This document shows positions 13,153 to 39,776 of a stretch of 64,000 nucleotides of DNA, piece after piece; within the stretch, counting starts at the first letter, position 1, and the number at the start of each line of letters is the position of its first letter. The position numbers and the translations under genes are program-made. The notes below the pieces were generated by a model. The model saw only the letters and a program-made list of their open reading frames with translations, did no database searches and was not told the DNA's origin. Location of the stretch: the NCBI GenBank assembly GCA_003151975.1, contig PLZD01000054.1:87177-151176 (forward strand), given 5' to 3'. The stretch comes from Elusimicrobiota bacterium. GTDB taxonomy: Bacteria > Elusimicrobiota > Elusimicrobia > UBA1565 > UBA9628.

Positions 13153-13847
13153 AATCCTTGCAATACTTGCGCGCGGAATCTCTCGAGGCGCTCGGGCGTG
13201 CCTATGTCGTAGAGGGGCGCCTCCGTTGTGAAGCCCCGTAAGCCGCCCTTTAGGAATTTTGGAAGTATCTCGCGCTCAAGCGAGCAGAACTTGCCCCCAG
13301 GCAGTGCTTTGAAAATCTTGGGGCCGAGCGCGAGAATCCCTGCATTGATCCAGGTCCCGCCCTTCGGGTCCTTCTCGGCGAATGTGACGATCTTGTCGTC
13401 GCTGTCGAGCGAGACAAAGCCCCCGTCGGTGCGATTGACCGACTCGGTCAAGGCGACGGTGGCGACAGCATCTCTCTCTTCGTGGAGATCCAGGACGGCT
13501 TGAAGGTCCACAGCACAGTAGGAATCGCCGTTCAAGACGAGCGCCGTCTCGCTTTTGCGCGATTTCTCGCAGAGCTTCAGCGCGCCGCCGGTGCCGAGAG
13601 GTTCTTTTTCGACCGAGAAGACATATTCGCGGCCAAAACGCGGAGCGAAGTAAGCGCTCACGGTCTCCGCCATGTGCCCGGTGCAAAAAATAAAGCGCTT
13701 GGCGCCCTGCGCCGCGGCCCATTCAACCAGGATGTCGAGAAACGGCTTGCCGTTGATGTCGACCATCGGCTTCGGGACGTCGGGAAGGTTCAACCGCGTG
13801 CCGAGCCCGCCGCAAAGAATGATGAGATCGGTCTCGGGAAGCTTCAA
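13149..13847 (-). CDS. hddC: D-glycero-alpha-D-manno-heptose 1-phosphate guanylyltransferase
   Basis: A nucleotidyltransferase of 232 aa, the size of HddC. The N-terminal loop CGGLGTRLN is followed by V-P-K-P-M-V-D-I-N-G-K-P-F-L-D. Then come P-L-G-T-G-G-A-L and V-L-N-G-D-S-Y (metal-binding D), and I-N-A-G-I-L-A and D-I-G-T-P-E-R-L typical of the family. It is expected to make GDP-D-glycero-D-manno-heptose from the 1-phosphate and GTP. Its position 6 nt after hddA supports the heptose assignment over a hexose uridylyltransferase. The other two pathway enzymes, GmhA and GmhB, are not in the window. Confidence 0.88.
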   Translation of the reverse strand: MKLPETDLIILCGGLGTRLNLPDVPKPMVDINGKPFLDILVEWAAAQGAKRFIFCTGHMAETVSAYFAPRFGREYVFSVEKEPLGTGGALKLCEKSRKSETALVLNGDSYCAVDLQAVLDLHEERDAVATVALTESVNRTDGGFVSLDSDDKIVTFAEKDPKGGTWINAGILALGPKIFKALPGGKFCSLEREILPKFLKGGLRGFTTEAPLYDIGTPERLERFRAQVLQGL

Positions 13848-14887: not shown

Positions 14888-14919
14888 TTGTCTCACCGCA
14901 TCGAACGATGTTATATGAT
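14888..14919 (+). promoter_or_regulatory. Possible promoter of the DUF2079-Sel1 gene
   Basis: TTGTCT (14888-14893) is followed by the overlapping -10 candidates TATATG (14912-14917, spacing 18) and TATGAT (14914-14919, spacing 20). The ATG at 14928 lies 8-10 nt further on, and no Shine-Dalgarno sequence intervenes. Confidence 0.3.
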
Positions 14920-14927
14920 GCACTCCC

Positions 14928-17438: not shown

Positions 17439-17440
17439 TT

Positions 17441-18373
17441 CTAATAGTTCCCGTACGGATTGCGGCGCAGAATCTTATAGGCCTTGACCAGCTCCTTGAT
17501 GCCCCTGGCCAGGGGCCACTCGGGCTTGTAGCCCGTCGACAGGATGCGCTTGTTCGAGACGATGTAGTCGCGCTTGTCGGGGTCCTCGCCGATCGGCGCT
17601 TCCATGAAGACAAAGCCCGGCACGATCTTTTTGATCTCGGCGCAGAGCTCGAGCTTCGAGAGGTTCGCATCCTCAAGACCGACATTGTAGGGCCGGCCCT
17701 TCATCTTGTCGAAGTGCTCGATGCCGTGCGCGAACGCCTTGGCGATGTCGCGCGCGTGGATGTAATTGCGCTTGAAGTGTCCCTCAAAGATGACCACCGC
17801 GCGGTCGGTCACGGCGCGGTAGACGAAGTCGTTAACAAGCAAATCCGTCCTCATTCGCGGTGAGGCGCCAAACGCCGTCGCGAGCCTGAAGGTGATCGCA
17901 TGGCCCGAATCGAGCGCGATCTTCTCGGCCTCGACTTTCGTTTTCCCGTAGAACGAGATGGGCTTCAAGGGCGAGTCTTCCGTGCAGAACTTGCCTTTCT
18001 GGCCGATGCCGTAACCGGAATTGGTCGTCGGGTACAAGATCAGCTGATTTCTCGAGGTGTTCTCGATGACGAGCTCCACGGCGTCGCGGTTGGTCGACTG
18101 GGCGGCCAGACGATCGCGGTCGCAGAGCGGAGCTCCGACGAGCGCTGCGAGCGAAATAATCGCGTCGTGCTTTTTCAAAAGCGGCAGCATCGTCTGCGAG
18201 TCCCGGCAGTCGCCGCGCACGATCTCGAAGGACTCGTGGCCGCACATGTCGAGCAGGCTCGTCTGATTGTAAAGGAAGTTGTCGAGCACGGTGACCTTGT
18301 GGCCCTTGTCCAACAAATACGGCGTCATGACCGAGCCGAGATAACCGGCGCCGCCCGTGATCAAAATCTTCAT
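17441..18373 (-). CDS. Extended SDR, similar to GDP-heptose C4-oxidase/reductase type (Cj1427-like)
   Basis: A 310-residue NAD(P)-dependent SDR with N-terminal GGAGYLGS and an intact Y-G-K-T-K. Blocks such as S-L-A-A-L-V-G-A-P-L-C, T-T-N-S-G-Y-G-I-G, D-L-L-V-N-D-F-V-Y-R-A and G-E-D-P-D-K-R-D-Y-I-V-S-N are, from memory, those of the Campylobacter Cj1427 group acting on GDP-D-glycero-D-manno-heptose. That fits hddA and hddC nearby and the GDP-sugar dehydratase directly upstream, whose stop abuts this start. It is the last gene of a six-gene operon starting at 24432. The exact reaction (C4 oxidation, reduction or epimerisation) is not decidable by eye. Confidence 0.88.
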   Translation of the reverse strand: MKILITGGAGYLGSVMTPYLLDKGHKVTVLDNFLYNQTSLLDMCGHESFEIVRGDCRDSQTMLPLLKKHDAIISLAALVGAPLCDRDRLAAQSTNRDAVELVIENTSRNQLILYPTTNSGYGIGQKGKFCTEDSPLKPISFYGKTKVEAEKIALDSGHAITFRLATAFGASPRMRTDLLVNDFVYRAVTDRAVVIFEGHFKRNYIHARDIAKAFAHGIEHFDKMKGRPYNVGLEDANLSKLELCAEIKKIVPGFVFMEAPIGEDPDKRDYIVSNKRILSTGYKPEWPLARGIKELVKAYKILRRNPYGNY

Positions 18374-19372
18374 TTACGCTTCCCCTCCGCGGCGAGACAC
18401 CTCGCGGCGCCAGTGCTTGAGCAAGTGCTTCAAGCTCTCGTCGAAATCGTAAATCGGCTTCCAGCCGGTCGCCCGACGGAACTTCGCGGTGTCGGGGATC
18501 TGCAAGGTGACGTCCGAGGGCCGCACGAGCGCCGGGTCGATCCGCGTCGGAATGTCCGCGGCGCTCAAAGCCTTCAAGCGCTTGAGGCAGTCGCCGACGG
18601 TCATCGTCGTCGTGCCGCCGATGTTGTAGGCCTCGCCGGGCTCGCAGTAGAGGATCGCGTCCCAGTAGGCGCGCACCGCGTCGCGCACGTCGATGAAAGT
18701 GCGCACCGAGGCGAGATTGCCGTGGCGCAGCTCTTTTTGAAAGCCCCCCTCAATGAGCGCCACCTGGCGCGCGAACGAGGTCGCGAAGAGATCCGTGCGG
18801 CGAGGGTTGAAGTAGGTGAACATGCGCGTACGGATGATCTTCATGCCCCAGCTCTTGAAGTACGAGAAGCCGAGCAAGTCCTGCGCCGTCTTGCTGACGG
18901 CATAGGGACTCACGGGCCTCAGCGCGCAGTTTTCATTGATCGGAATGTCCTTCTTGGTCACCTGGCCGTAGACCTCGGAAGTGCTGCAGAGCTGAATCCA
19001 CGGGTCGAGGTCACTGAGCCGCAGCGCCTCGAGCAGGTTCGTGGTGCCCACGACATTGTTGGACATGACCGCGGTCGGCTCTATGAACGAGACCCGCACG
19101 TTGGCGTGCGCCGCCAAATGAAAAACGGCGTCGGGCTTGGACTCCTTGATCGCCGCCAGCGTGGAAGAGAAATCCATGAGGTCGCACTCGTGCATCTCGA
19201 TCTTCGCCGACAGCGCTCGAGGGCCGTGCGCGGCGCTGTGCCAGCGCGAGAGGCCGTGCACCTCGACCTGCGGGTGGTTCTCGAGTATGTGCTCGGCGAG
19301 ATATGAGCCGCCCGAGCCCGTGGCTCCCGTGATCAGCACGCGCCGGATGCGGCGCGAAGAGCGCTTCTTCAT
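18374..19372 (-). CDS. GDP-sugar 4,6-dehydratase (GMD family; possibly acting on GDP-heptose)
   Basis: A 332-residue extended SDR with N-terminal ITGATGSGGSYLAEH, H-L-A-A-H-A-N-V-R-V-S-F, S-T-S-E-V-Y-G-Q-V and catalytic P-Y-A-V-S-K. The C-terminal R-P-S-D-V-T-L-Q-I-P-D-T-A-K-F-R-R-A-T-G-W signature is typical of GDP-mannose 4,6-dehydratase and its relatives. With hddA and hddC nearby and a Cj1427-like SDR next door, a GDP-heptose 4,6-dehydratase role (as for DmhA or WcbK) is at least as likely as GDP-mannose. The start overlaps the ColD-like gene end by 4 bp (ATGA). The expected product is a GDP-4-keto-6-deoxy sugar, which would be the substrate of the neighbouring ColD-like enzyme. Confidence 0.92.
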   Translation of the reverse strand: MKKRSSRRIRRVLITGATGSGGSYLAEHILENHPQVEVHGLSRWHSAAHGPRALSAKIEMHECDLMDFSSTLAAIKESKPDAVFHLAAHANVRVSFIEPTAVMSNNVVGTTNLLEALRLSDLDPWIQLCSTSEVYGQVTKKDIPINENCALRPVSPYAVSKTAQDLLGFSYFKSWGMKIIRTRMFTYFNPRRTDLFATSFARQVALIEGGFQKELRHGNLASVRTFIDVRDAVRAYWDAILYCEPGEAYNIGGTTTMTVGDCLKRLKALSAADIPTRIDPALVRPSDVTLQIPDTAKFRRATGWKPIYDFDESLKHLLKHWRREVSRRGGEA

Positions 19373-20541
19373 TTCATGGCCCCCAGAACGACGTCGCAGA
19401 TGAAATCCACGTCCTCAAGCGAGAGTGACGGGTGATTAGGCAAGAAGAAACCGGTGTGATGGATGCGGTCGGCCATCGGGAAGCTGGCCTTGCCGTAGCG
19501 CTCGTACCAGAACGGGTGCAGGCCGAGATTGCCCGCCGAGAATATCCGCGTTTCGATGCCGTGCTCTTCGAGCGCCTTGACGATCTTGCGGCGCTCCTCG
19601 CGATCCTTGGCCAGCGCCCCGAAATGGATGGAGCAGATGCGCGAGGCGCCGGGCGAGCGCTGGTAGGCGAGCCTTGTGGCCAGGCGCTCCTTGAAGCGCC
19701 GGTGATTGCGCTCTCTCGCGTCGATGATCGAGTCGAGCTTGGCGAGCTGTCCCAGGCCGATGAACGCGTTGAGGTCGGTCGAGCGCACGTTGAAGCCCGG
19801 GATGTAAAAAACGAACGGCGAGTGAAAGTCGTCGATCTTATACTTTTTGGTGAGCGCCGCATGCGCCGGCTTATCCAAGTCCTTGCTCCAGCCGTGCGCG
19901 CGCAGCATCAGCAGAAGGTCATAGAGCTTCTTGTCATCGGTCGAGACCATGCCGCCCTCGATCGTCGAGAACTGGTGGCCGAAGTAAAACGAGAATGACG
20001 CCATATCGCCGAAGGTGCCGACCTTGCGGTCCTTATAATAGGCGCCGATCGCCGCGCAGGCGTCTTCCATGAGATAGAATCCGTACTTCTTCTGGAGGGC
20101 CAGCATCTCGTTCATCTTATGGGGAACGCCGAGCACCTGGACCATCATGACGGCGCCGGGCCTGTGCTTTTTGAGAAGCTTCTCAAGATGGACCAGGTCG
20201 AGGCCGTACGTGTCCTTGTCGGCCTCGCACATGATGGGCTCAAAGCCAAATTGGATCGCGGGAGCGATCGACGTCACCCAGCCGACCGAGGGCACGATGA
20301 CCTTCTTGTTCTTAAGCCGCCCCGAGAGCAGCAAGGCGTAGTACATCAGGAGATTGGCGGACGAGCCCGAGTTGTTGAAGACCGAATATTTCACGCCCAG
20401 CCACTTGCTCCAACCTTCCTCGAACTCAACCGTCAGCGCGCCCTTGGTCAGGCGCGGGTAGCTCTTCAGCCAGGCCGCGAGCTTGTCTATGTCGCGGTCG
20501 TCGATCGTGTCCTCGGCCAGGTGATACTTTATGTTTTTCAA
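19369..20541 (-). CDS. ColD-like PLP enzyme: GDP-4-keto-6-deoxy-sugar 3-dehydratase
   Basis: A 390-residue DegT-fold protein, close to the 388 aa of ColD. His189 stands where aminotransferases have the PLP lysine, in S-F-Y-F-G-H-Q-F-S-T-I-E-G-G, as in ColD (His188). There is no C-x-C iron-sulfur motif, so it should not need an E3 reductase. The TTG at 20541 is chosen: it overlaps the E1-beta stop (TTGA), AAGGGG lies about 5 nt upstream, and translation from it starts KNIKYHLAED. The frame stays open to 21270, but that is antisense-like sequence inside E1-beta. Inferred role: C3 deoxygenation of the GDP-4-keto-6-deoxy-mannose or -heptose made by the next gene. Confidence 0.9.
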   Translation of the reverse strand: MKNIKYHLAEDTIDDRDIDKLAAWLKSYPRLTKGALTVEFEEGWSKWLGVKYSVFNNSGSSANLLMYYALLLSGRLKNKKVIVPSVGWVTSIAPAIQFGFEPIMCEADKDTYGLDLVHLEKLLKKHRPGAVMMVQVLGVPHKMNEMLALQKKYGFYLMEDACAAIGAYYKDRKVGTFGDMASFSFYFGHQFSTIEGGMVSTDDKKLYDLLLMLRAHGWSKDLDKPAHAALTKKYKIDDFHSPFVFYIPGFNVRSTDLNAFIGLGQLAKLDSIIDARERNHRRFKERLATRLAYQRSPGASRICSIHFGALAKDREERRKIVKALEEHGIETRIFSAGNLGLHPFWYERYGKASFPMADRIHHTGFFLPNHPSLSLEDVDFICDVVLGAMK

Positions 20542-21572
20542 AAGGGCCCCTTGAAGGTGGAAGTTAGAACCGGCACGTTGACGTCGGGAAACGCGCGGCC
20601 GAGCATCGAGAAGGCTTCCATGGCGATCGTGCGCGCGCTCGGGTAGAAGGCGTTCTCGAGCGGCTTGCTGACGGGACACGGCGTGGGCTGCATCCCCAGA
20701 CGACGCACGGGCTGCTTGAGGCAATCGAAGGCGCGCTCGGCTGCAATCGCTGCGATCTCGGCCGAGACGCCGCACGCGGTCCAGCTCGTGTCGACGACGA
20801 TCAGGCGTCCGGTCTTTCTGACCGAGGCCACGATCGTCTCGCGGTCGAGCGGCACGAGGCTCACGGGGTCCACGACCTCGGCCGAGATGCCCTGCGTCTC
20901 GAGAAATTCCGCGGCCTTCAATGACTCCACGACCATGTACGAGTTGGCCACGATCGTGAGGTCCTTGCCCGCGCGACGGATGTACGCCTTCCCCAAGGGT
21001 GCCGCGACCGGCGGATCGGGGACGTCGCCGACGATGTCGTAGAGCAGGCGATGCTCGAGGATAAAGACGGGATTCGGATCGTTGATCGCGGCCAACGTCA
21101 GTCCCTGCGCGTCGGCGGGCGTGGTCGGCATGACGACCTTCCATCCGGGGACATGCATAAAGAAACTCTGCAGGCTCTGCGAGTGCTGCGCTCCCTGCCC
21201 CCACGAACGGCCGATCACGGCGCGCACGACCAGCGGCACGTTCATGCGGCCGCCGAACATATAGCGCCACTTCGCCGCGATATTAAAAAGTTGGTCCATC
21301 GCGAGATACAGGAAATCCGAGCGGATGTGCACGTGCACGGGTTTAAGGCCGTTGACGGCCGCCCCAACGGCCACTCCCGTCATCGCGGCTTCAGAAATCG
21401 GGGTATCGAAAACGCGCTCGGGCCCGAATTTCTCAGCGAGGCCCGTCAACGAGCCGAAGATCGCCCGGTGATCGTCCACGCCGAGGCCGAAGACGAAGAC
21501 CTTCGGGTCGTGCTCCATCGCGTGGAAGAGCGCGGTGCGTATCGCTTCGCCGTATTTCATCCGTTTGGTCAT
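20538..21572 (-). CDS. TPP-dependent 2-oxoacid dehydrogenase-like E1 beta subunit
   Basis: A 344-residue E1-beta (AcoB/PdhB-like) subunit. It shows the conserved glutamate region F-D-T-P-I-S-E-A-A-M-T-G-V-A-V-G-A-A, then R-S-D-F-L-Y-L-A-M-D-Q-L-F-N-I-A-A-K, G-A-Q-H-S-Q-S-L and a transketolase C-domain with L-T-I-V-A-N-S-Y. With the alpha subunit it would decarboxylate a 2-oxoacid on thiamine diphosphate. No E2 lipoyl transferase or E3 is nearby, so a normal dehydrogenase complex is unlikely from this locus. E1 pairs in sugar clusters (AviB1/AviB2 of avilamycin) attach two-carbon branches. That role is inferred here from the adjacent 3-dehydratase. Confidence 0.92.
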   Translation of the reverse strand: MTKRMKYGEAIRTALFHAMEHDPKVFVFGLGVDDHRAIFGSLTGLAEKFGPERVFDTPISEAAMTGVAVGAAVNGLKPVHVHIRSDFLYLAMDQLFNIAAKWRYMFGGRMNVPLVVRAVIGRSWGQGAQHSQSLQSFFMHVPGWKVVMPTTPADAQGLTLAAINDPNPVFILEHRLLYDIVGDVPDPPVAAPLGKAYIRRAGKDLTIVANSYMVVESLKAAEFLETQGISAEVVDPVSLVPLDRETIVASVRKTGRLIVVDTSWTACGVSAEIAAIAAERAFDCLKQPVRRLGMQPTPCPVSKPLENAFYPSARTIAMEAFSMLGRAFPDVNVPVLTSTFKGPF

Positions 21573-22570
21573 AGCGACTCCGCGTAAACGTCCTGGAAAA
21601 GATTTTCCACGGTCGGAAACGGGCTTTTCTCGGCGAAGTCCACGGCCTCGTCAACCTCGCGCCTGAGTTCGGCCTCCCACTGCGCGAAAAGCTCCGGCTT
21701 GACCTTGCAGCGCTTCGTCAAATCCGCCTTGGCGAGCTTGAGCGGGTCGTTCTTTTGCGCCAGCGCCTGCTCGTTCTTGCGGCGATATGACTCGTGGAAG
21801 TCCACGCCGGGCCCCACGTGCTCATGCCAGCGATAAGCCGTAAATTCAAGGAGCCTCGGCCCTCCGCCCTTGCGGATCGACGCGACGGCGGCTGAGGCTG
21901 CATTGTATACAGTGGACGCGTCGTTGCCGTCGAATTTCTCGCCGGTCAGGCCCAGTCCTTCGGCCACGCGATAGAGGTCCAGCTGCTTGCGGCGCTCGGG
22001 CACCTTCGAGTGGATCGCGTACCAGTTATTCTCGAGCACGTAGATGATCGGCAGTTTTTTTAAGACCGCGAAATTGACGCTCTCGAAAAACACGCCTTCG
22101 TCGATGGCCCCGTCGCCGAACACCGAGACGACGACGCGCTTGCGCCCCTGGCGCGAACTCGCGTACGCGTCGCCAGTCGCGACAGGTATCGTGCTCGCGA
22201 CGATCGCGGAACAAGACATCAGCCCCGCGTCAGGATCGGCGAGATGCATGGATCCCCCTTTGCCGCGCGCGCAGCCCGTGTCCTTGCCGTAGAGCTCCGC
22301 GAACATGCGCTTCATGTCTCCACCCTTGGCGATATAAAAAGCGTGGCCGCGGTAGGTGCCGTGGACGTGATCGCCGTGCGCGAGCGCCCCGCAGACGCCG
22401 GCCGCGATGGCCTCCTGGCCGACCGAGAGATGGATTGGGCTTTGGATCTTGTCGGTCGGGTAGACCTCGGTGATCTTCTGCTCAGCCAGTCGAATGCGCA
22501 GCATGGTCCGATAGAGCTCGATGGACGTGGCGGCGTCGGGACGCTTCATCTTGTTTTTTTTCTTGATCAT
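21569..22570 (-). CDS. TPP-dependent 2-oxoacid dehydrogenase-like E1 alpha subunit
   Basis: A 333-residue E1-alpha protein. The thiamine-diphosphate motif runs from G-D-G-A-I-D-E-G to L-E-N-N-W-Y. The start region P-I-H-L-S-V-G-Q-E-A and G-T-Y-R-G-H-A-F-Y are typical. The loop that in pyruvate dehydrogenase reads Y-R-x-H-G-H-S is here Y-R-W-H-E-H-V-G-P. The start ATG at 22570 overlaps the upstream membrane-protein stop (TAATG). The stop overlaps E1-beta (ATGA), so the two subunits are translationally coupled. Partners and the inferred role are given under the beta subunit. An acetoin- or branched-chain-type dehydrogenase is the alternative reading. Confidence 0.92.
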   Translation of the reverse strand: MIKKKNKMKRPDAATSIELYRTMLRIRLAEQKITEVYPTDKIQSPIHLSVGQEAIAAGVCGALAHGDHVHGTYRGHAFYIAKGGDMKRMFAELYGKDTGCARGKGGSMHLADPDAGLMSCSAIVASTIPVATGDAYASSRQGRKRVVVSVFGDGAIDEGVFFESVNFAVLKKLPIIYVLENNWYAIHSKVPERRKQLDLYRVAEGLGLTGEKFDGNDASTVYNAASAAVASIRKGGGPRLLEFTAYRWHEHVGPGVDFHESYRRKNEQALAQKNDPLKLAKADLTKRCKVKPELFAQWEAELRREVDEAVDFAEKSPFPTVENLFQDVYAESL

Positions 22571-24492: not shown

Positions 24493-26346
24493 GTGAAACG
24501 GCGCGTCGATGGGCTCGCTTTGGCTGCCGCGGCGGGAGTCTTCTGCCTTCTGCTTCTGCGGCCGCTCTACATGGTCCACCTGCGCGATCAAATGCGGAGG
24601 GATACTCCCGAAGCCTGGCAAAATCTGCCGACCAACGGGCGCTTCTCGCTGCTGCTCCCGTTTCTTTTCAACCGCTATCACGACGAGGCCGCCTACGCCT
24701 CGATGGCTCACGAGATCCTGCGCCACGGCGTGCCGCGCAATCCCTGGTGGCCTGAAGAGCGCGGATTTGGAAGCTGGATACAGAATTGCGTGGCGCTCTA
24801 CCCTCTCGCGGGCCTGAGCTGGCTCTTCGACGGCAACATGACGGCGGCGTGGTGTCTCGGCGTGGCGCTCATCGGCGCGGGCTGGCTGCTCCTCTTCTAC
24901 CGCGTCTTCTATTGGTGGTCGCAAAAGTCCGAGGTCGCGTTGCCGCTGGCGCTGTTCTGCGCGCTGTTTCCCGACGTCAACATGTGGCTCCTGGACATCA
25001 ACTTCAATCCCCGGATCAACTTCGAGCGCTACGCGGCCGCCTTCTTCCAGCATCAGGCCAACCTGCGGCCGCATTTCTACCGTTTGCCGTCGGGGTTTTT
25101 GACGCTGTTTCTCATGTGCTGGCTTTTCTTGGGCGTGTGGCGGCTTCTCTGCGAGGAACGCAAGCGGACTTTGCCCGCGATGGTCTTGGGGGCGGGAGTC
25201 GCGCTCCTCGCCTGGGTGCATCCGTTTGAGTTCGTGTTCGGCATGGCGACGCTCATGGTGCTCTTCTTCGCCCATTGGATTTGGCCGGCGCACGCCGCGC
25301 GCAAGTGGAACATCACCGCCGCTTTCTTGACGGCGCTGCCGGTCGGATTTTTCTGCATGGGCCTGATCTCGCACACGGTCAATCCCCAGGCCTGGCACGA
25401 GCATCTCGAGCTCTTGGGCATCGAGTACACCCGCAGGCCCTATCTGATCACAGCGATCCACTTGATCTTCGCGGGAGGCGGCTTTTATCTTTTCTCTCGC
25501 GAAAAAGATCCAAAACGCAGGGCGGCCTGGCTATTTTTGACCTGCGCACAGATCGCCATCTTCCTGTGCCGCAACCAGCATGTCTTGCTTGGATTTACAG
25601 TGGAACCCTTCCATTACATTCCCCTGGGCAGTCTGCTGGGAGCGCTCATGCTTTATCTGTGCCTTTCCGATTGGATGGCAAGCTCCCGAAATTGGACGCC
25701 GCGCGCGGGTGCTGTGGCGTGCGGCGTGATTCTTTGCTGGGCGCTCTTCAACGAGAAGACCTCGGCGGAGCGGATGTATCGGATGTTCGGCATGCCGCAG
25801 GAGAAAGAGGCGGCCTTCGACTGGGCGCGCGAGAACATCCCAGGAGATGCGCTGCTGCTCTCGACCTCGATGATGACCAACGAGGCCATTCCGCTCTACA
25901 CCAACGCCCAAGTCTTCGGCGCGCCGCTCGGGCTCATCACGACGCCCTTCACTTTGGACGCCTACTTCAAGAAGATGGCCGTCCTGCTCAAATCCTGCCA
26001 CGCCGACGCGGAGCGCTTCATCACGCAGCGCTGGCTGTTGCCCGAGACGCGCCACGCCCTGCAGGCGCAAACCGTCATCGAGCAGCACGAGCTGGGTGAG
26101 GTGAATCTCCGCAACTTCGACGCGGAGGAGTGGTTCTACTCCTTCCACCGCGACTTCAAGACCTTTGAGGGCGTACGCAGGCGGCAGGACGAGTTCCGCA
26201 AGGACATCGAAGACGCCAAGCCGCTCGAGGGGCCTTATTACGTGTGGCTCGATTCGGACGATGCGTCCCTGCTCACCGGTCCTCTCGAAAAATACGGCGG
26301 CGCGCGCGTCTTCGGAAACGGAGCCGTCTCGATCTATCGTTTTTAG
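24493..26346 (+). CDS. Polytopic GT-C-like membrane protein (paralogue of the divergent neighbour)
   Basis: A 617-residue membrane protein with about ten TM segments and a soluble C-terminal domain (about 430-617). The N-terminal TM is followed by a loop with F-N-R-Y-H-D-E-A-A-Y-A-S-M-A-H-E, which resembles the acidic first loop of GT-C enzymes and the matching loop of the protein encoded at 22570-24432. The GTG start at 24493 is the first in-frame start after a promoter-like element and appears leaderless. It stands alone and converges with the GT2 gene (stops overlap by 4 bp). A lipid-linked glycan transferase role is plausible but not proven. Confidence 0.83.
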   Translation: MKRRVDGLALAAAAGVFCLLLLRPLYMVHLRDQMRRDTPEAWQNLPTNGRFSLLLPFLFNRYHDEAAYASMAHEILRHGVPRNPWWPEERGFGSWIQNCVALYPLAGLSWLFDGNMTAAWCLGVALIGAGWLLLFYRVFYWWSQKSEVALPLALFCALFPDVNMWLLDINFNPRINFERYAAAFFQHQANLRPHFYRLPSGFLTLFLMCWLFLGVWRLLCEERKRTLPAMVLGAGVALLAWVHPFEFVFGMATLMVLFFAHWIWPAHAARKWNITAAFLTALPVGFFCMGLISHTVNPQAWHEHLELLGIEYTRRPYLITAIHLIFAGGGFYLFSREKDPKRRAAWLFLTCAQIAIFLCRNQHVLLGFTVEPFHYIPLGSLLGALMLYLCLSDWMASSRNWTPRAGAVACGVILCWALFNEKTSAERMYRMFGMPQEKEAAFDWARENIPGDALLLSTSMMTNEAIPLYTNAQVFGAPLGLITTPFTLDAYFKKMAVLLKSCHADAERFITQRWLLPETRHALQAQTVIEQHELGEVNLRNFDAEEWFYSFHRDFKTFEGVRRRQDEFRKDIEDAKPLEGPYYVWLDSDDASLLTGPLEKYGGARVFGNGAVSIYRF

Positions 26347-27290
26347 GACTCGAAGCCGATGGCTTCGCGCACGATGTAGGGTGGGCGCCCGCGCACGTCC
26401 TTGTAGACGCGCATGACGTAATAGCCGACCACGCCGACGGCCGCGAGCAAAGTGCTCCAGCAGAAAAAGATCAGCGCGAAGATCCAATAGCCGTCGGAAA
26501 CTTCCGTGCCGCAAACGGCGGCCACACCGCCTGCCGCCGCGAGCAGAAGCGCGAGCAGCGCTGAAGCGATACCGACGCTCAAGACGGCGAAGATCGGAAA
26601 GAAAGTGAAGCCCGTAAGCGCCGCCGCGAAAAACTTGAACGCGGTTGAACTCAAAACGCCCCGCGTCGATTGCCCCGCGGCGCGCGCCTCGCGCTCGTAT
26701 TCGACGGAGACCTGCGCGTAGCCGATCCAGACGGCCAAGCCCCGGAAATAAAGGTCGCTCTCCCGGAATGAGAGAATGTGATCCACGCAGCGGCGCGACA
26801 GAAGCTTGTAGTCTCCCGACTCGACCGGCAGCGGGATTTCAGAGACGCGCGCGAGGATCCGGTAGGCCAGCAATGTCAGCGCGAGCCGCAGCGCGCTCTC
26901 GCCGTGGCGCTTGGTGCGCACCGTGTGCACGACGTCGGAGCCCTCGCGCCAAGCTTTGAGCATCTTCGGGACGACCTCGGGCGGGTCCTGCAAGTCCGAG
27001 TCCATGTAGATAACGGCGTCGCCGCGCGATCGGCTCAACCCCGCCATCAGGCACTCGTAGACGCCGAAGGTGCGCGACATGTCGACGATCTTGATGCGCG
27101 CGTTGTCCTTGCGCAAGCCCTTGAGCGTCTCGAGCGAGCCGTCGGTGGAGGCGTCGTTGACGAAAATCAGTTCGTAGTCCTCGGGCTCGTTCTTGAGCAC
27201 CGCGACCGTGCGCGAGACCAAAAGGGGAAGGGTCTTCTGCTCGTTCTTGAAAGAGAAAACGATCGAGACCAGTTTCGGCATGCGGTCCAT
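26343..27290 (-). CDS. Membrane-anchored GT2, GtrB/ArnC type
   Basis: A 315-aa enzyme. The N-terminal GT-A domain (about 1-225) contains V-S-I-V-F-S-F-K-N-E, F-V-N-D-A-S-T-D-G-S and the metal site Y-M-D-S-D-L-Q-D-P-P-E. Two C-terminal TM helices (about 230-262 and 270-300) are typical of undecaprenyl-phosphate glucose or 4-amino-arabinose transferases. It would charge undecaprenyl-phosphate with a sugar for use by the GT39/GT-C proteins of the locus. ATG 27290 is used; M4 at 27281 is an alternative. TATTCT lies 5 nt before the ATG. It is 24 nt downstream of the SDR gene and may belong to its operon. Confidence 0.92.
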   Translation of the reverse strand: MDRMPKLVSIVFSFKNEQKTLPLLVSRTVAVLKNEPEDYELIFVNDASTDGSLETLKGLRKDNARIKIVDMSRTFGVYECLMAGLSRSRGDAVIYMDSDLQDPPEVVPKMLKAWREGSDVVHTVRTKRHGESALRLALTLLAYRILARVSEIPLPVESGDYKLLSRRCVDHILSFRESDLYFRGLAVWIGYAQVSVEYEREARAAGQSTRGVLSSTAFKFFAAALTGFTFFPIFAVLSVGIASALLALLLAAAGGVAAVCGTEVSDGYWIFALIFFCWSTLLAAVGVVGYYVMRVYKDVRGRPPYIVREAIGFES

Positions 27291-27314: not shown

Positions 27315-28295
27315 CTAGGACGCCGGCTTATCGAAGAGCTCGTACCGGGCGGAGGTCTCGCTTTGGTGCGCCCGGTACCAGTCGACAGTTTCGCTCACAC
27401 CGCGCTCGATGGAGATTTCCTGAGAGAAGCCCATTTTTTTGGCGCGGGCCATGTCCATTATGCGCACTTTGTCGCCCGCGGGTTTGCTCGCGTCCCAGAC
27501 GACCTTGGGTTTCTTATCCAAGCACGAGACGATGATCTCGACGAGTTTTTTTATCGACATCCCGACGCCCGAGCCCAGGTTATAGATGCCGCCCGCGCCC
27601 TTGTCGACGGCGAGCAGCATGCCGCGCGCCACGTCGTCGGCGTGGATGAAGTCGCGCTCGGGCGAGCCGTCGCCCCAAACCGCCAGCGGGTCCTCGCCGG
27701 AGACGGCCCGCTTTATCAAGGACGGCACGACCATCGCGTTGATCGAATCGAAATTATCATAAGGACCGTAGACGTTGGCTGGGCGCACGATCGTGACGTC
27801 CTTCCAGCCGTACTCGATGCGGTAAGCCTCCACCTGCAGCTCGCCCATGCGCTTGGCCCAGCCCGCGAAACGGTCGTTGGGCGAGGGAAAGGTCTTCCAG
27901 ACGTCGTCCTCGTGAAAGACGGGCGCCGGCGAGTAGACGCCCACCGAGCTCGTGTACAAATAGCCGCCGACCTTGGCCAGGCGCGCGGCCTCGAGGAGAT
28001 TTGTATTAAAGAGCACCATCGGCGTGAACAAGCTGGCGGGCCGGGTCATCGTGATCGCGGGCGAGCCCTTCACGCAGAGCAGGTTGAAGACGAAATCCAT
28101 GTCCCGGCACGCCTTGCTGCAATTCTCAAGCTCGCGCAGATCAAGCTTCAGGAATTCCGCCTTCGAGTGAGCGCGCGAAGGCGCGTCGAGCGAGCTGATG
28201 CGCACGGACGCTCCCTGCGCCAAAAGGCGCTCGACCAGGAACCTCCCGACAAGGCCCGTGCCGCCGGCGACCAGCACGCTCTTGCCTTTAAACAT
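27315..28295 (-). CDS. Extended SDR (NDP-sugar epimerase/reductase fold) lacking the catalytic Tyr
   Basis: A 326-residue extended SDR. The NAD-binding start is V-L-V-A-G-G-T-G-L-V-G-R. Also present are Y-L-Y-T-S-S-V-G-V-Y, R-P-A-N-V-Y-G-P-Y-D-N-F and V-W-G-D-G-S-P-E-R-D-F-I-H. The YxxxK motif is altered: F-A-G-W-A-K-R-M-G-E puts Ala144 where Tyr is expected, while Lys148 is kept. It is closely similar to the SDRs at 30298 and 33309. It lies 2 nt after the B12-radical-SAM gene, on whose other side is another Tyr-less SDR. By fold it would act on an NDP-sugar; without Tyr the usual proton transfer is doubtful. Confidence 0.92.
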   Translation of the reverse strand: MFKGKSVLVAGGTGLVGRFLVERLLAQGASVRISSLDAPSRAHSKAEFLKLDLRELENCSKACRDMDFVFNLLCVKGSPAITMTRPASLFTPMVLFNTNLLEAARLAKVGGYLYTSSVGVYSPAPVFHEDDVWKTFPSPNDRFAGWAKRMGELQVEAYRIEYGWKDVTIVRPANVYGPYDNFDSINAMVVPSLIKRAVSGEDPLAVWGDGSPERDFIHADDVARGMLLAVDKGAGGIYNLGSGVGMSIKKLVEIIVSCLDKKPKVVWDASKPAGDKVRIMDMARAKKMGFSQEISIERGVSETVDWYRAHQSETSARYELFDKPAS

Positions 28296-28297
28296 GC

Positions 28298-30301
28298 TCA
28301 GTGGTGCCCCGCGATCTGACCGGCGGCGTCGGTTTTTCCCGTGCCGTAGAGATAGGCGCCCTTCTTATTGCCGTACCAGATCACCTTTTGGCACCACTCG
28401 TCCCAGGAGTTCCAAGCCTCGCTCGTGCGATCGATATGGTAGCGCGACGGCTTGTGCTCGAGCGAGATCGGACGGCCCAGGCGTGCGGCTTTATAGAACT
28501 CGCCGACGTTGTGATTCAGTTCGAGATCGAGGTCCTCCTTCTGGAAGGGCTGCTTGAGCAGGCTTTGATTGAGCAGGATGGCTTCCTTAAGAACCGCGGA
28601 CGAAACGCCGCCGCCGTACTCGCGCAGCAGAAGGCCGAAGGCTGACTCGGCCTCTTTGCAGAACGCCTCGAGTTTCCCCTCGCGGCAGATCTTGATGAGC
28701 ATGTACTCGTCGGCCGGCCACCAGATGTCGAGCCATTCCTTGGAATGGCAGTACTCCACGCCGCCGTTCTGGATCTCGGCCGCCTTCTCGAGGAAGAAGC
28801 GGCGGATCTCCGCGAGGATCGGGAATTTCCCCGGCGCGCCGCCGGGCAAGGTCTCGAAGAGTCCCTCCGAGAACAGCTCGAGCAAGGTCCGGTAGCGAAG
28901 ATCGGCGACCTCGTGCAGCACGATCAAAGGGATCTGGAGCACCTTGTTGAAATGCAGAAGGCCCGCGGTCCAGCAGAAGGCCCGGGCCCGGACCCAGTCG
29001 GGCTTGGGCATGGACTCGGTCGCGATCACGAGTTCCTGGGTCTCCTCGATGTCGCCGATCGTATGCGACAGACCTCCGTGCATGTTCGCGACGTGGCTCT
29101 CGACGGTGATCATGCCGTAGCGTTTGAGATATTCGGGGTCTCCCATCTCGGCATTGGGCAGGATCGAGAGATTGTTGAATTGGATGCGGTTGTGCTGGCC
29201 CTTGCCGATGACCATCGACACGCCGTCGACGAACGAGTCGTACGTTTCTTCGGGAAGCCCGAGTATGAGGTCGGTCATCGTCTCGATGCCGCGCGCCGTG
29301 AACCGCCGCTGGATCTCGTGATAGGTCGCCAGGGAAATATTGTCGCGCTTGATGGCCTTGAGGGTCTTGGCGTCGACCGACTGCAATGAGACGACCACGC
29401 CTTTGTTGAGGCCCGAGTCCGAGAGAATCTTCTGCACCTCGTACGAGCGCTCGGTTGCGTTTTTGGTGTTCTGCACCGACATGGCCTGCGGGTAGCCGAA
29501 GCGGCTCTTGGTCTGCGCGCAGTACTGCGCGATCTCGATGTCGCGCGGCAGTATGCCGAAATTGGCGTCGGCGCAGAAGATAAACTCGATCTTGTGCCCG
29601 CCAAACCAGTCCATCTCGCGCTTGAGGCGCTCGACGTCCCAGGCGTTGACTTTGTTGGCGACCGCCGAGCCCCAGTCGCAGAAGGTGCACGAGAACGGAC
29701 AGCCGCGGTTGGTCTCCCAAACGACGATCCAATGCTCGTCGGGATTGGCCTTCATGAGCGGATCGAAAACGCCCGTGAGAAACGGCGACGGCACGTCGGT
29801 GAGGTCCTTGAGGCGCGGCGCGCGCTCGGTGCGGCCGATGGAGCCGTCAGGCTTGATCCAACTGAGCGAAGGAACTTTAAACCAGTCTCTTCGGCCCGCG
29901 TTCTCGAGCAGGGACACGAAGACCTGCTCGCCCTCTCCGTGACAGGCCAGGTCGATGAACGGGTTCTTGCGCAGGAAGGGCTCGACGCGGTCGGGCACGT
30001 GCGGCCCGCCGAAGACGATCACGGTCTCAGGCGAGCGTTTTTTGAGCGCCTCGGCGATCTTGAGCGAGATCTGCGCGTTCCAAACATAGAGGCTGAAGGC
30101 GGCCACGTCGGCTCCCGCGAGCTGGGCGACCGCCTTCTCGACGGGGATGCGCGAGTAGATCGGCAGCAGGAATTCGCAAGCCTTGGGGTCCGCAAGGTGC
30201 ATCATGGCGTAGGCCTGCAGCGACGCGACCGATGTCGGAAAATAATTCTGGCCCGAAAAACTATTGTTGATTTGGACGAGTCCGACTTTCAACGAGCTCA
30301 T
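28298..30301 (-). CDS. Cobalamin-binding-domain radical SAM enzyme
   Basis: A 667-residue protein. The N-terminal ~150 residues resemble a B12-binding domain (V-G-L-V-Q-I-N-N at the start, then F-G-G-P-H-V-P and A-C-H-G-E-G-E). The radical-SAM core has C-P-F-S-C-T-F-C at residues 201-208 (CxxxCxxC), and a long C-terminal region of about 250 residues follows. The ATG at 30301 overlaps the upstream SDR stop (ATGA). Members of this class methylate unactivated carbons or rearrange lipids and sugars. Being sandwiched between two NDP-sugar SDRs in one operon suggests a nucleotide-sugar or lipid-linked-sugar substrate, which is inference. Confidence 0.9.
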   Translation of the reverse strand: MSSLKVGLVQINNSFSGQNYFPTSVASLQAYAMMHLADPKACEFLLPIYSRIPVEKAVAQLAGADVAAFSLYVWNAQISLKIAEALKKRSPETVIVFGGPHVPDRVEPFLRKNPFIDLACHGEGEQVFVSLLENAGRRDWFKVPSLSWIKPDGSIGRTERAPRLKDLTDVPSPFLTGVFDPLMKANPDEHWIVVWETNRGCPFSCTFCDWGSAVANKVNAWDVERLKREMDWFGGHKIEFIFCADANFGILPRDIEIAQYCAQTKSRFGYPQAMSVQNTKNATERSYEVQKILSDSGLNKGVVVSLQSVDAKTLKAIKRDNISLATYHEIQRRFTARGIETMTDLILGLPEETYDSFVDGVSMVIGKGQHNRIQFNNLSILPNAEMGDPEYLKRYGMITVESHVANMHGGLSHTIGDIEETQELVIATESMPKPDWVRARAFCWTAGLLHFNKVLQIPLIVLHEVADLRYRTLLELFSEGLFETLPGGAPGKFPILAEIRRFFLEKAAEIQNGGVEYCHSKEWLDIWWPADEYMLIKICREGKLEAFCKEAESAFGLLLREYGGGVSSAVLKEAILLNQSLLKQPFQKEDLDLELNHNVGEFYKAARLGRPISLEHKPSRYHIDRTSEAWNSWDEWCQKVIWYGNKKGAYLYGTGKTDAAGQIAGHH

Positions 30302-31287
30302 GTGAAGGCCGTCTTCCTCGGGCCCACGCGCTCGTGATTGTCGCGATACCACTCGACCGTTTCCTTAATGCCGTCGTCCAGGGAAACCTGGGGTTCGAAG
30401 CCCAGCAGTTTGCGGGCGCGCGAGATGTCGGCAACCCGGTACTTCTCGCCGGAGGGCCGGTCCTCGTCCCAGACGATCTTAGGGACCTTGCCCGAGACCT
30501 TGAGGATGGCGTTCACGATCTCGCGCACCGAGAACCCCTTGCCCGAGCCGAGATTGATCGGCGTGCCGTCGGCCGATTTCTCCAAGGCGAGCAGCATGCC
30601 GCGCGCGGCGTCGCGGCAATGCAGGAAATCGCGCACGGCCGTGCCGTCCCCCCAGACCGTCAGCGGGTCCTCGCCGCCGAGCACGCGGGCGATCAAGGCG
30701 GGAATGACGAGCGCCGTCTTGGGATCGAAATTGTCGTAAGGCCCGTAGGTGTTGACCGGCCTAACGATTGCGACCTTGTCCCAGCCGTACTGCGCCTTGT
30801 AGGCCAGGGCCTGCATCTCGCCCATGCGCTTGGACCAGCCGGCGAAGGCGTCGGATTCGTGCGGCGGCGCGGCCCAGGCCTGGTCCTCGACGAAGACCTT
30901 GGCCGGCGCGTAGACGCAGATGGAGCTCGCAAACAAATAGCGTTCGACGACGGCCAGCCTCGCCTGCTCCATCATATTGGTGTTCATGAGCAGGGGCCGC
31001 ACGAAGAAATCGGCCGCGCGCTTGCGGCCCACGCCGACCGAGCCCGTCACGCTGGCCAGGTGAAAGACGAAGCGCATGCCCTTGACGACCTCTTTGCAGA
31101 AGTCCCGGCTCATGAGGTCGCCGCGGTGGTACTCCACGCCGGGCGCAGGATCCACCGGCTCGTGGTGGCAGGCCACGCGCACGCGCGCGCCCGCCTCAGC
31201 CAAGAGCTTGACCAGCGCGCGGCCGATCAGGCCGGTGCCGCCGGTCACCAAAACTCTCTCGTGACGATACATGCATGTATTTACCAT
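30298..31287 (-). CDS. Extended SDR (NDP-sugar epimerase/reductase fold) lacking the catalytic Tyr
   Basis: A 329-residue extended SDR, paralogous to those at 27315 and 33309. It has R-V-L-V-T-G-G-T-G-L-I-G-R, V-F-H-L-A-S-V-T-G-S, Y-L-F-A-S-S-I-C-V-Y and N-T-Y-G-P-Y-D-N-F-D. The motif is F-A-G-W-S-K-R-M-G-E, with Ala149 in place of Tyr and Lys153 kept. The start at 31287 has a strong GGAGGAG 7 nt upstream. M6 at 31272 aligns better with the paralogues and could be used by a leaderless transcript from the TTGACA/TAAATA element. It is first in the operon SDR, B12-radical-SAM, SDR, GT2. Confidence 0.9.
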   Translation of the reverse strand: MVNTCMYRHERVLVTGGTGLIGRALVKLLAEAGARVRVACHHEPVDPAPGVEYHRGDLMSRDFCKEVVKGMRFVFHLASVTGSVGVGRKRAADFFVRPLLMNTNMMEQARLAVVERYLFASSICVYAPAKVFVEDQAWAAPPHESDAFAGWSKRMGEMQALAYKAQYGWDKVAIVRPVNTYGPYDNFDPKTALVIPALIARVLGGEDPLTVWGDGTAVRDFLHCRDAARGMLLALEKSADGTPINLGSGKGFSVREIVNAILKVSGKVPKIVWDEDRPSGEKYRVADISRARKLLGFEPQVSLDDGIKETVEWYRDNHERVGPRKTAFT

Positions 31288-33308: not shown

Positions 33309-34316
33309 ATGGCGAACCTCTACAAGGGCAAGAACATACTCGTGACCGGCGGCACCGGCATGATCGGCAAGTACCTCGTCGAGAAATTGCTCGCGCTCGG
33401 CGCCAAGGTCCGCGTGGCCTCTCTCGACGACGCGTCCCGCGCCGACCCCAAGTCCGAGTTCCTGCGCACCGACCTGACCTCGTTTGAGGCCTGCATGGCC
33501 GCCTGCGCGGGCCAAGAAATCGTGTTTCACTTGGCCGGCATCAAGGGCTCGCCGCTCATGGCCGCCAAGAAGCCGGCCTCCTTCTTTGTGCCGACCTTGG
33601 CCTTCGACACGAACATGATGGAGGCCGCGCGCCAATGCGGCGCCGCGAAATATCTCTACACGAGCTCGATCGGCGTCTATCACCCCGCCGACGTGTTCTT
33701 CGAGGACTCGGTCTGGAGCACCTACCCCTCTCAAAAGGACGAGTTCGGCGGCTGGGCCAAGCGCATGGGCGAGCTGCAGGCCTCGGCCTATCGCATCGAG
33801 CACGGCTGGAAAGGCATCGCGATCGCGCGCCCGGCCAACGTGTACGGCCGTTTTGATAACTTCAATCCGGACAACGCGATGGTCATACCGAGCTTGATCA
33901 AGCGCGCCATGGACGGCGAAGACCCTCTCACGGTATGGGGCGACGGCACGCCGATCCGCGATTTCATCCACGCCTCCGACGTGGCCGCCGGCATGCTCTT
34001 GCTCGTCGCTAAAGGAGAAGAGCGCCCGGTCAACCTCGGCTCCGGCACGGGTGTTACGATCAAGAAGATCGTCGAGATCATCGTCGCCAATCTCGATAAG
34101 AAGCCCAAGCTCGTCTGGGACTCCTCCAAACCGGCGGGAGACAAAATGCGCGTCATGGACACCGCGCGCGCCAAGTCCATCGGCTTCTCGCCGTCGATGT
34201 CGATCGAGGAAGGCATCAAGGACACGATGGCTTGGTACAAGGCCAACCGCGCCGCGGTCGACAAGCGCTACAACGTTTTCACGGAAAAAAAGCTCATGTC
34301 CTCCAAGGCGCAATGA
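33309..34316 (+). CDS. Extended SDR (NDP-sugar epimerase/reductase fold) lacking the catalytic Tyr
   Basis: A 335-residue extended SDR, third of a close paralogous set with 27315 and 30298. It has N-I-L-V-T-G-G-T-G-M-I-G-K, V-F-H-L-A-G-I-K-G-S-P, Y-L-Y-T-S-S-I-G-V-Y-H-P and V-W-G-D-G-T-P-I-R-D-F-I-H. The YxxxK position reads F-G-G-W-A-K-R-M-G-E: Gly147 replaces Tyr and Lys151 is kept. ATG 33309 is chosen because it gives the same N-terminal length as the paralogues; the frame is open upstream inside the GT2 gene. It sits 5 nt after that gene and overlaps the next SDR by ATGA. Confidence 0.92.
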   Translation: MANLYKGKNILVTGGTGMIGKYLVEKLLALGAKVRVASLDDASRADPKSEFLRTDLTSFEACMAACAGQEIVFHLAGIKGSPLMAAKKPASFFVPTLAFDTNMMEAARQCGAAKYLYTSSIGVYHPADVFFEDSVWSTYPSQKDEFGGWAKRMGELQASAYRIEHGWKGIAIARPANVYGRFDNFNPDNAMVIPSLIKRAMDGEDPLTVWGDGTPIRDFIHASDVAAGMLLLVAKGEERPVNLGSGTGVTIKKIVEIIVANLDKKPKLVWDSSKPAGDKMRVMDTARAKSIGFSPSMSIEEGIKDTMAWYKANRAAVDKRYNVFTEKKLMSSKAQ

Positions 34317-37829: not shown

Positions 37830-38792
37830 ATGCCCTCGAAGATGCTGCTCTGCGGCGCGACCGGCTTCATCGGCAGGAACCTGCTCGAGCGCTTCCTGCA
37901 GGACGAGCAATACCGGATCCTCGCGCCCTACAACACGACCAAGCCGCCGCGCGAGCTGGTAAAGCATCCGCGCGTCAAGTTCTTCAAGGCCGACCTGCGC
38001 GACCCCAAAGCCGTCGATAAGGCGGTCCGCGGCATGGACGTCGTCATCCAAGCGGCGGCCACGACCTCGGGCTCCAAGGACATCGTTACGCGCCCCTATC
38101 ACCACGTCACCGATAACGCCGTCATGAACTCGCTTTTGTTCCGGGCCTGCCACGAGCATCAGGTCGAGCGCGTGGTCTTCTTCTCATGCACCGTCATGTA
38201 CCCTTCGCGGGATTTGCCCGTGCGCGAGGAGGATTTCTCGGGGCAGATCACGGACAAATATTTCGGCGTCGGCTGGACCAAGGTCTATCTCGAGAAGATG
38301 TCCGAATTCTACTCGCGCCTGGGGCCGACGCAGTACACCGTGATCCGCCACTCCAACATCTACGGTCCGCACGACAAGTACGATCTCGAAAAATCCCACG
38401 TCTTCGGCGCGACGGTGGCCAAGGTCATGAACGCCAAGGGCGGCAAGGTCGTCGTCTGGGGCGATGGAAGCGAGGCACGGGATCTGCTTTACGTAGACGA
38501 TCTGACCGATCTCGTGGCGCTTTCCCTTAAGATCCAAAGCACGCCGTTTGAGCTCGTCAACGTGGGCACGGGCGTGGCGACTTCCGTGGACGCTTTGGTC
38601 AGGAAGATCATCGCGGCTTCCGGCCGCGACCTCAAAATCGAGTACGACAAGACCAAGCCCAGCATCCCATTCAAGCTGGCCGTCGATTACGCGCGCGCGA
38701 CGAAGGTCTTCGGCTGGGAGCCGCGCATAAAACTGGAAGAGGGCATCGAGAAAAGCCTGGCCTGGTACCGCGTCAACTGTCCGAGCCGCTGA
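37830..38792 (+). CDS. Extended SDR resembling GDP-L-fucose synthase/WcaG, without catalytic Tyr
   Basis: A 320-residue SDR. It has L-L-C-G-A-T-G-F-I-G-R-N, A-A-A-T-T-S-G-S-K-D-I, F-F-S-C-T-V-M-Y-P (compare the S-S-C-x-Y-P of GDP-fucose synthase), N-I-Y-G-P-H-D-K-Y-D and V-W-G-D-G-S-E-A-R-D-L-L-Y-V-D-D. In F-G-V-G-W-T-K-V-Y-L-E the Tyr position (K minus 4) is Val147, with Lys151 kept, so it joins the three other Tyr-less SDRs of the window. The gene is alone on its strand and its stop abuts the convergent SDR at 38793. The substrate is probably a GDP- or other NDP-4-keto sugar. Confidence 0.9.
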   Translation: MPSKMLLCGATGFIGRNLLERFLQDEQYRILAPYNTTKPPRELVKHPRVKFFKADLRDPKAVDKAVRGMDVVIQAAATTSGSKDIVTRPYHHVTDNAVMNSLLFRACHEHQVERVVFFSCTVMYPSRDLPVREEDFSGQITDKYFGVGWTKVYLEKMSEFYSRLGPTQYTVIRHSNIYGPHDKYDLEKSHVFGATVAKVMNAKGGKVVVWGDGSEARDLLYVDDLTDLVALSLKIQSTPFELVNVGTGVATSVDALVRKIIAASGRDLKIEYDKTKPSIPFKLAVDYARATKVFGWEPRIKLEEGIEKSLAWYRVNCPSR

Positions 38793-39776
38793 CTACTTTT
38801 TCTTTCCCGCCAGCCGCCCGCGGTACCAGCTGATCGTGCGCGACAGGCCCTCGCGCAGGGGCACGCGCGCGGAAAATCCGACGGTCTTCTTGGCCTTCTC
38901 GGTCGCGCAGTAGCGCCGCAGCTGGCCGGCGGGCTTGGAGCGGTCAAATGAGAGCCGCGCCGATGAGCCGGACAATTCAAGAATAAGCTCGGCGAGCTCC
39001 TTGATCGAGATCTCCTCGTCCGAGCCCAAGTTGAGCGGGTCGGCGGCGGGGTAGCGCTCGGTCACGTCGAGCAGGCCGCGCGCGATGTCGTCGACGAAGA
39101 GGAAATTGCGTTTGGGCGCGCCGTCGCCCCAGACCGTGACCGGGTTCTCGCCGCGCACGGCGCGACGGATGAGCGAGGCTACGACATGCGCGTCGGGCGT
39201 GTCGAAATGATCGCGCGGGCCGTAGGCGTTGGAAGGCCGGGCGATGGCGACCTTCATGCCGAATTCTTTTTGATAGGCCGCGCCGAGATACTCCGACATG
39301 CGCTTGGCCCAGCCGTAGCCCTGGGAAGCCGGCTCTGGAGTATCGCGCAGCCCTTCTTCTTCCGGCGTAGGCACGCTGCAATCGTGCGGATAGACGCACG
39401 CCGAGCTCACGACCAGGAACCGGCCGCAGCCCGCCTGCCGCGCGGCCTCGATCATGTGCGAACCGATCAGCATATTGTCGTGGAACATCGAGCCGTGATG
39501 CTGGGAGTTAAACCCCACGCCCGCGACCTTGGCCGCGAGATTCAAGACGACCTCCTGCCCCGCGCACGCCTTGCGGCACTGCGCGGACGAGAGGAAATCG
39601 GTCGGCACGAGCTTCACCTGGCCGCGCACGGATTTCAAATTCTCGCGGCGCGAAGGGCTCAGGCGGTCGGCGACGGTGACCTTGCTGCCGCGCTTGAGGA
39701 GTTCCTCGACGACGTGGCTGCCGATAAATCCGGCGCCGCCAGCGACGACGACCTTCTTGCCTTCCCAGAAACCCAT
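38793..39776 (-). CDS. Extended SDR, NDP-sugar epimerase/GDP-fucose synthase-like, intact YxxxK
   Basis: A 327-residue SDR with V-V-V-A-G-G-A-G-F-I-G-S-H, L-A-A-K-V-A-G-V-G-F-N, V-V-S-S-A-C-V-Y-P-H, an intact Y154-G-W-A-K158, P-S-N-A-Y-G-P-R-D-H-F and V-W-G-D-G-A-P-K-R-N-F-L. The neighbouring G-W-A-K-R-M-S-E shows it is related to the Tyr-less set and marks which residue they lost. ATG 39776 is 1 nt after the upstream stop; the frame is open 8 codons further into that gene. It is last in the operon with a GT2 and another SDR. Confidence 0.92.
   Translation of the reverse strand: MGFWEGKKVVVAGGAGFIGSHVVEELLKRGSKVTVADRLSPSRRENLKSVRGQVKLVPTDFLSSAQCRKACAGQEVVLNLAAKVAGVGFNSQHHGSMFHDNMLIGSHMIEAARQAGCGRFLVVSSACVYPHDCSVPTPEEEGLRDTPEPASQGYGWAKRMSEYLGAAYQKEFGMKVAIARPSNAYGPRDHFDTPDAHVVASLIRRAVRGENPVTVWGDGAPKRNFLFVDDIARGLLDVTERYPAADPLNLGSDEEISIKELAELILELSGSSARLSFDRSKPAGQLRRYCATEKAKKTVGFSARVPLREGLSRTISWYRGRLAGKKK

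Follow-up and report, generated by a model that had tools for sequence, protein, structure and literature searches.

The question raised by this locus is what a cobalamin-binding radical-SAM enzyme does when its gene is translated between two SDR genes whose products have lost the catalytic Tyr. The window, which here means the whole stretch of 64,000 nucleotides that was analyzed from an Elusimicrobiota contig, is a large surface-polysaccharide island with a Wzy_C-type ligase/polymerase with TPRs, a flippase and several glycosyltransferases; a DUF3473 polysaccharide deacetylase and an asparagine synthase likewise belong to it (8429-11197, 44586-45452 and 57077-60576, together with Wzy_C and the flippase). 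The interpretation favored here, to which an even chance is given, is that the three genes form a tailoring module of this surface-glycan locus, in which the B12-radical-SAM enzyme C-methylates an NDP-sugar intermediate and the SDRs bind the sugar nucleotide.

The genes are read from the minus strand in the order SDR (30298-31287), B12/radical-SAM (28298-30301), SDR (27315-28295) and GT2 (26343-27290). The first SDR gene ends with a TGA that overlaps the radical-SAM start codon as ATGA (ttcacATGAgctcg), and only 'gc' separates the radical-SAM stop codon TGA (28300-28298) from the ATG of the second SDR gene, a gap of 2 nt. The listed ORF of the radical-SAM gene starts at a GTG at 30352, which is simply an in-frame codon upstream of the start of the 667 aa protein. 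The tight coupling of the three genes described in the first-pass annotation was exact in its overlap, its gap and all its coordinates. The unit, however, contains a fourth gene that had been left out, since the GT2 gene lies 24 nt downstream of the second SDR gene and closes the unit. At the borders, a convergent gene reaches the 3' end of the GT2 gene at position 26346, and on the other side the unit is followed by a divergent gene that begins at 31350. Full-length relatives of the radical-SAM gene and of both SDR genes were found elsewhere, in several phyla, and therefore the three genes are considered real and spurious ORFs could be ruled out. A promoter and terminator scan gave near-background matches only, and no relative was identified in the viral contigs searched. 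The genes of the unit and those discussed below are collected in Table 1.

Table 1. Predicted genes of the module, the sugar cassette and the further SDRs in the window.
Feature	Position	Strand	Remarks
Clade-A extended SDR without Tyr, opening the unit	30298..31287	-	Ala at the Tyr position of YxxxK, Lys kept
Cobalamin-binding radical-SAM enzyme, TokK/CysS-type, 667 aa	28298..30301	-	Domains, CX3CX2C, W76/W215 equivalents, tree
Second Tyr-less extended SDR, clade A	27315..28295	-	Ala at the Tyr position; 2 nt past the radical-SAM stop
Putative GT2 glycosyltransferase, PgfS/ArnC (polyprenyl-phosphate sugar transferase) type	26343..27290	-	NF047588 196 bits, PRK10714 132 bits; under curated cut-offs
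ThDP enzyme subunit, E1-alpha type	21569..22570	-	
ThDP enzyme subunit, E1-beta type, overlaps E1-alpha	20538..21572	-	PRK09212 310 bits
DegT/DnrJ-type sugar aminotransferase	19369..20541	-	Start approximate, TTG
GDP-mannose-4,6-dehydratase-like NDP-sugar dehydratase	18374..19372	-	
SDR, GalE/epimerase type (SDR12 cluster)	17441..18373	-	Tyr present
GHMP sugar kinase, HddA-like	13854..14855	-	139.7 bits, cut-off 600
Sugar-1-phosphate nucleotidyltransferase, guanylyltransferase/HddC-like	13149..13847	-	122.2 bits, cut-off 300
Third Tyr-less clade-A SDR	33309..34316	+	Gly at the Tyr position
Clade-B Tyr-less SDR	37830..38792	+	Val for Tyr, Cys for Ser/Thr; His179 equivalent present
Canonical SDR relative	38793..39776	-	Ser/Tyr/Lys plus the GDP-fucose-synthase Cys and His

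Both SDRs of the unit matched the Epimerase family at 1e-47 or better, and the cofactor loop GxxGxxG is present in the SDRs as GGTGLIG/GGTGLVG. At the YxxxK site they read FAGWS-K and FAGWA-K, so that they are indeed Tyr-less, as had been proposed from the sequence alone. The residues were read from an alignment with GDP-fucose synthase, and the residue roles in SDRs of this type were taken from PMC12362431 and PMC2279256. Together with the third copy of the window, the two SDRs fall in clade A, which comprises 22 rows from several phyla (support 100) and in which the catalytic Tyr occurs in 0/22 (Ala or Gly in 19, Thr in two, Pro in one). The Lys140-type residue, the Ser/Thr, and Trp202 and Arg209 are each kept in 22/22. 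The epimerization pair is lost as well, with the Cys109-type residue found in one member (30298 only) and the His179-type residue in none. In the sister clade B (28 rows), Tyr is absent from 22 members; Lys is replaced by Arg in the six that have Tyr and by Ser, Tyr or Ala in a few more. Three clade-B SDRs at other loci (L101 2767-3759, L044 16855-17841 and L046 2586-3563) combine Tyr to Val with Lys to Ser, and these replacements are conserved between genomes. Since the canonical SDR in the same window shows Ser-Tyr-Lys together with the Cys and the His, the alignment is considered sound; an alignment slip as the origin of the Tyr loss was ruled out, with Lys, Trp and the flanking residues in register over the 22 sequences.

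The AF2 model of the first SDR (30298; pLDDT 85) showed a complete NDP-sugar epimerase fold, with best fold matches at Z about 40. Because the full fold is modelled and the sugar-nucleotide residues are conserved while Tyr and the epimerization residues are lost, the clade-A SDRs are, judged from alignment and model, folded proteins of the sugar-nucleotide-binding type that occur across phyla and have lost two catalytic residue sets. In the open-access literature no precedent was found for Tyr-less SDRs in GDP-heptose work or for inactive SDR subunits, an absence that carries little weight. Alternatively, the SDRs might be ordinary enzymes in which water or another residue stands in for Tyr; they would then oxidize, reduce or epimerize an NDP-sugar, and the radical-SAM enzyme would methylate their product. 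Such activity would be consistent with the retained Lys, Ser/Thr and cofactor loop and with the full NDP-sugar epimerase fold of the model, and there are parallels in human GDP-fucose synthase Y143F, which retains some activity, and in the reported SMK-type SDRs, which have Met for Tyr (PMC12362431 and PMC2279256). However, the replacement is Ala or Gly in most of clade A, the Cys/His pair is lost too, and the sister clade has members without Lys as well, which makes active SDRs a possible but somewhat unlikely explanation.

The radical-SAM protein contains a B12-binding domain (PF02310, 3.8e-10, residues 56-131) and a Radical_SAM domain (PF04055, 1.2e-14, residues 197-359), the cobalamin-binding domain being N-terminal as in class B methylases. 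The CX3CX2C motif corresponds to C201-C205-C208 and is kept in all orthologs. When compared with PDB sequences, the nearest solved structures were TokK (5.5e-99 over residues 20-474) and CysS (6e-58). These matches and the kept cofactor residues bear out the assignment as a B12-radical-SAM enzyme of the methylase type made in the first-pass annotation, but its term 'GenK-type' found no support as stated, as TokK and then CysS are the nearest characterized relatives among the sequences compared, a set without GenK. The best NCBIfam match was the KedN5 family NF033712 (272.6 bits, under its cut-off of 700). An AF2 model built from four sequences reached a pLDDT of 56.5 and was set aside.

Maximum-likelihood analysis placed the window protein in a clade of 20 rows (support 98/100), apart from TokK/ThnK and CysS. 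The grouping of TokK with the ThnK-like sequence had a support of 100/100; the S. cattleyicolor protein in this tree is taken to be ThnK on the basis of its organism and similarity. A clustering with a well-characterized unrelated family, which had been named beforehand as evidence against the proposal, was not seen. The genome of the window encodes three further paralogs of the TokK fold (31-33% identity), which form a separate group in the tree and have no Trp equivalent to W215; they are located at G000:C26 157241-158545, C26 183334-184653 and C15 11585-12868.

Published residues of TokK and CysS (PMC12846815, PMC9692996) were mapped onto the radical-SAM protein via the alignments. The Trp under the cobalamin, in SLYVWN of the window protein (TokK W76/CysS W75), and the Trp second after the last cluster Cys, in CDWGS (TokK W215/CysS W206), are both kept in 20/20 clade members. 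The position of TokK R280, presumably a substrate residue, and CysS W271 is occupied by Ser throughout the 20-member clade, the window protein included, and the surrounding strand is S-V-Q in this protein, with nearly the same residues in the other members. In CysS, W271, L272 and S273 make up the substrate and gating strand (PMC12846815). As both Trp residues are kept and the substrate strand is unlike that of either TokK or CysS, the protein looks, from these residues, like an enzyme that handles its cofactor as TokK and CysS do and its substrate differently.

In the phylum of the window (341 genomes), relatives of the radical-SAM protein at E 1e-100 or better were found in nine other genomes, eight with 49-60% identity and one more distant with 33% (L048). 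More relatives occur in the phylum of a record named Nitrospiraceae (44-59% identity), and one from Azospirillum sp. TSA2s (WP_136701551.1) is plasmid-encoded. Gene order was compared around 21 radical-SAM loci, 18 of which remained after dereplication. The recurrent neighbors in the 21 loci are the SDR family (18/21), a GMD-like dehydratase (13/21), an HddA-like GHMP kinase (12/21), a nucleotidyltransferase (11/21) and a ThDP enzyme, present as an E1-alpha/beta pair or a split transketolase (14/21). Directly upstream of the radical-SAM gene and in the same orientation, 9 of the 18 dereplicated loci have an SDR of the Tyr-less superclade to which the window SDRs belong, versus 2.0 expected from the local SDR frequency (simulated P 4e-5, with the relatedness of the loci ignored). 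As in the window, SDRs flank the radical-SAM gene at one further locus (L040); at three (L043, L044, L046) its neighbors are other radical-SAM genes and not an SDR, and one (L067) contains no SDR of this family. Hence, both the SDR linkage and the sugar-nucleotide setting proposed for the window recur in relatives, and the missing conservation of the linkage that had been named beforehand as counter-evidence was not seen.

The SDRs are, however, no specific partners of the radical-SAM enzyme. Within the phylum, 14 genomes encode clade-A SDRs, that of the window included, and only two of the other 13 contain a radical-SAM ortholog at E 1e-100 or better. The 11 genomes without it include eight loci with a dehydratase, most of which also have a kinase or a ThDP gene. 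Because clade-A SDRs sit in such cassettes without the radical-SAM gene, the SDRs are assigned to the sugar cassette itself, and the radical-SAM enzyme seems to provide an accessory tailoring step that some versions of the cassette include.

The window counterparts of the recurrent cassette genes lie at 13149-22570. As the ThDP and dehydratase genes are 4-9 kb away from the module, past a plus-strand gene, their membership in a shared pathway is inferred from the relatives. E1-type (alphaKADH2) enzymes act on keto-sugars and make the C2-branched sugars of secondary metabolites, and split transketolases have been proposed as sugar-branching enzymes, those found being all from Streptomycetes (PMC12247030). 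Based on the recurrent cassette and these branching roles, a branched or otherwise unusual NDP-sugar is the likeliest product of the pathway. A heptose identity is not claimed, with the HddA, HddC and GMD models all under their NCBIfam cut-offs. Pairs of split transketolase genes beside NDP-sugar genes were also observed outside Streptomycetes, among others at L008 14802-16516, L049 5456-7097 and L096 6755-8444. Elsewhere in the island, a plus-strand gene at 35736-37418 combines ankyrin repeats with a caspase-like domain (Peptidase_C14, 1.5e-13) in one protein, and a second B12-radical-SAM gene of 506 aa is present at 47902-49422 on the minus strand; at related loci, related radical-SAM genes often stand in rows.

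In the proposed mechanism, one SAM would methylate the cob(I)alamin of the radical-SAM enzyme and a second SAM would give rise to a 5'-deoxyadenosyl radical that takes a hydrogen from an sp3 carbon of the substrate, after which the methyl group of methylcobalamin would be passed to the substrate radical. The substrate would most likely be an NDP-sugar intermediate of the adjoining cassette, which comprises the kinase, nucleotidyltransferase, 4,6-dehydratase, aminotransferase and ThDP two-carbon-branching enzyme, and the methyl would be placed on the ring or on the added two-carbon branch; substrate, position and number of methylations are all inferred. The SDRs probably bind the sugar nucleotide and may act as a non-redox partner, as an isomerase via other residues or as a subunit of a hetero-oligomer. 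The GT2 enzyme could then load the product sugar onto polyprenyl phosphate. An open-access literature search gave no precedent for a B12-radical-SAM enzyme in O-antigen or NDP-sugar work, although little can be concluded from this absence.

Because the same loci hold other B12-radical-SAM genes, the acceptor in the glycan locus may also be a lipid or another carrier. The radical-SAM enzyme would then act on a lipid, polyprenyl or acyl carrier, with the SDRs as mere neighbors. The abundance of other radical-SAM genes and membrane glycosyltransferases in these loci and the orthologs without an adjoining SDR are in line with this, and CysS contacts the pantetheine tail of its own substrate (PMC12846815). 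Nevertheless, it is unlikely in view of the coupling to SDR genes on both sides, by the ATGA overlap and the 2-nt gap, the recurrence of the upstream SDR and a clade-specific substrate strand unlike those of CysS and TokK. A rearrangement, ring contraction or epimerization instead of a methylation is known for some B12-radical-SAM proteins (general statement in PMC13331322), but it is improbable for a protein to which two methylases are closest by far and in which both Trp residues of the cobalamin site are conserved. Finally, SDR genes are common (35 SDR1-family genes in the 21 loci) and clade-A SDRs are also present where the radical-SAM gene is missing, but the upstream adjacency far above expectation and the translationally coupled order in the window make it very unlikely that the genes came into this order by chance, through shuffling in a gene-rich glycan island, without a functional link.

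The C-methylating module thus remains the preferred interpretation; the methylase-type enzyme, the SDR linkage and the sugar-nucleotide setting of the first-pass annotation are part of it, whereas the likeness to GenK has given way to TokK and CysS. Here, an enzyme architecture that is already known appears in a new clade and context, tied to an unusual SDR clade, and the pairing of SDR and methylase in surface-sugar clusters of other phyla suggests an uncharted route to carbon-methylated surface sugars. More speculatively, and with considerable reserve, a large extended SDR clade without proton-relay chemistry could serve as holder or partner of sugar nucleotides for radical and ThDP C-C-bond enzymes, here together with a new B12-radical-SAM clade that C-methylates the branched NDP-sugars of surface glycans. 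If the preferred interpretation is right, radical methylation of the TokK/CysS type would extend from antibiotic pathways to the surface glycans of uncultured bacteria, carbon-methylated or branched surface sugars would have a gene signature, and the SDRs would offer a clean test case for SDR function after loss of the catalytic Tyr. The loci also point to sugar-branching ThDP enzymes, split transketolases included, outside Streptomyces clusters.

Compared with the known methylases, the window protein shares with TokK and ThnK, the iterative methylases of carbapenem C6, the cobalamin-binding, radical-SAM and C-terminal domains, a similar length (667 versus 681 aa), the CX3CX2C motif and the equivalents of W76 and W215. 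In contrast to these, it stands in a separate clade with ∼35% identity to TokK over residues 20-474 only, has Ser for R280, carries the C-terminal motifs WWPADE and WYGNKxGAYLY that are specific to the new clade, and is encoded in a surface-glycan locus and not in a beta-lactam cluster. CysS, the iterative methylase of the cystobactamid methoxy group, has the same architecture and the equivalents of W75 and W206, but is more distant than TokK, and its W271/L272/S273 are replaced by S/V/Q. GenK and GenD1, the methylases of the gentamicin sugar, are similar in the proposed reaction class, C-methylation of a sugar carbon; for GenK, methylation at C-6' is described (PMC4039129).

By sequence, the solved structures nearest to the Tyr-less clade-A SDRs are GDP-L-fucose synthases, epimerase-reductases of the extended SDR type, with which they share the fold and the Lys140, Trp202 and Arg209 equivalents; the clade-A SDRs of the window, however, are without the equivalents of Tyr136, His179 and Cys109, the last being kept in 30298. 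With the alphaKADH2 and split-transketolase branching enzymes of the avilamycin, aldgamycin and miharamycin type, the window shares an E1-alpha/beta pair, and split transketolases or E1 pairs stand beside NDP-sugar genes in 14 of the 21 loci, but here they are found in the surface-glycan loci of other phyla.
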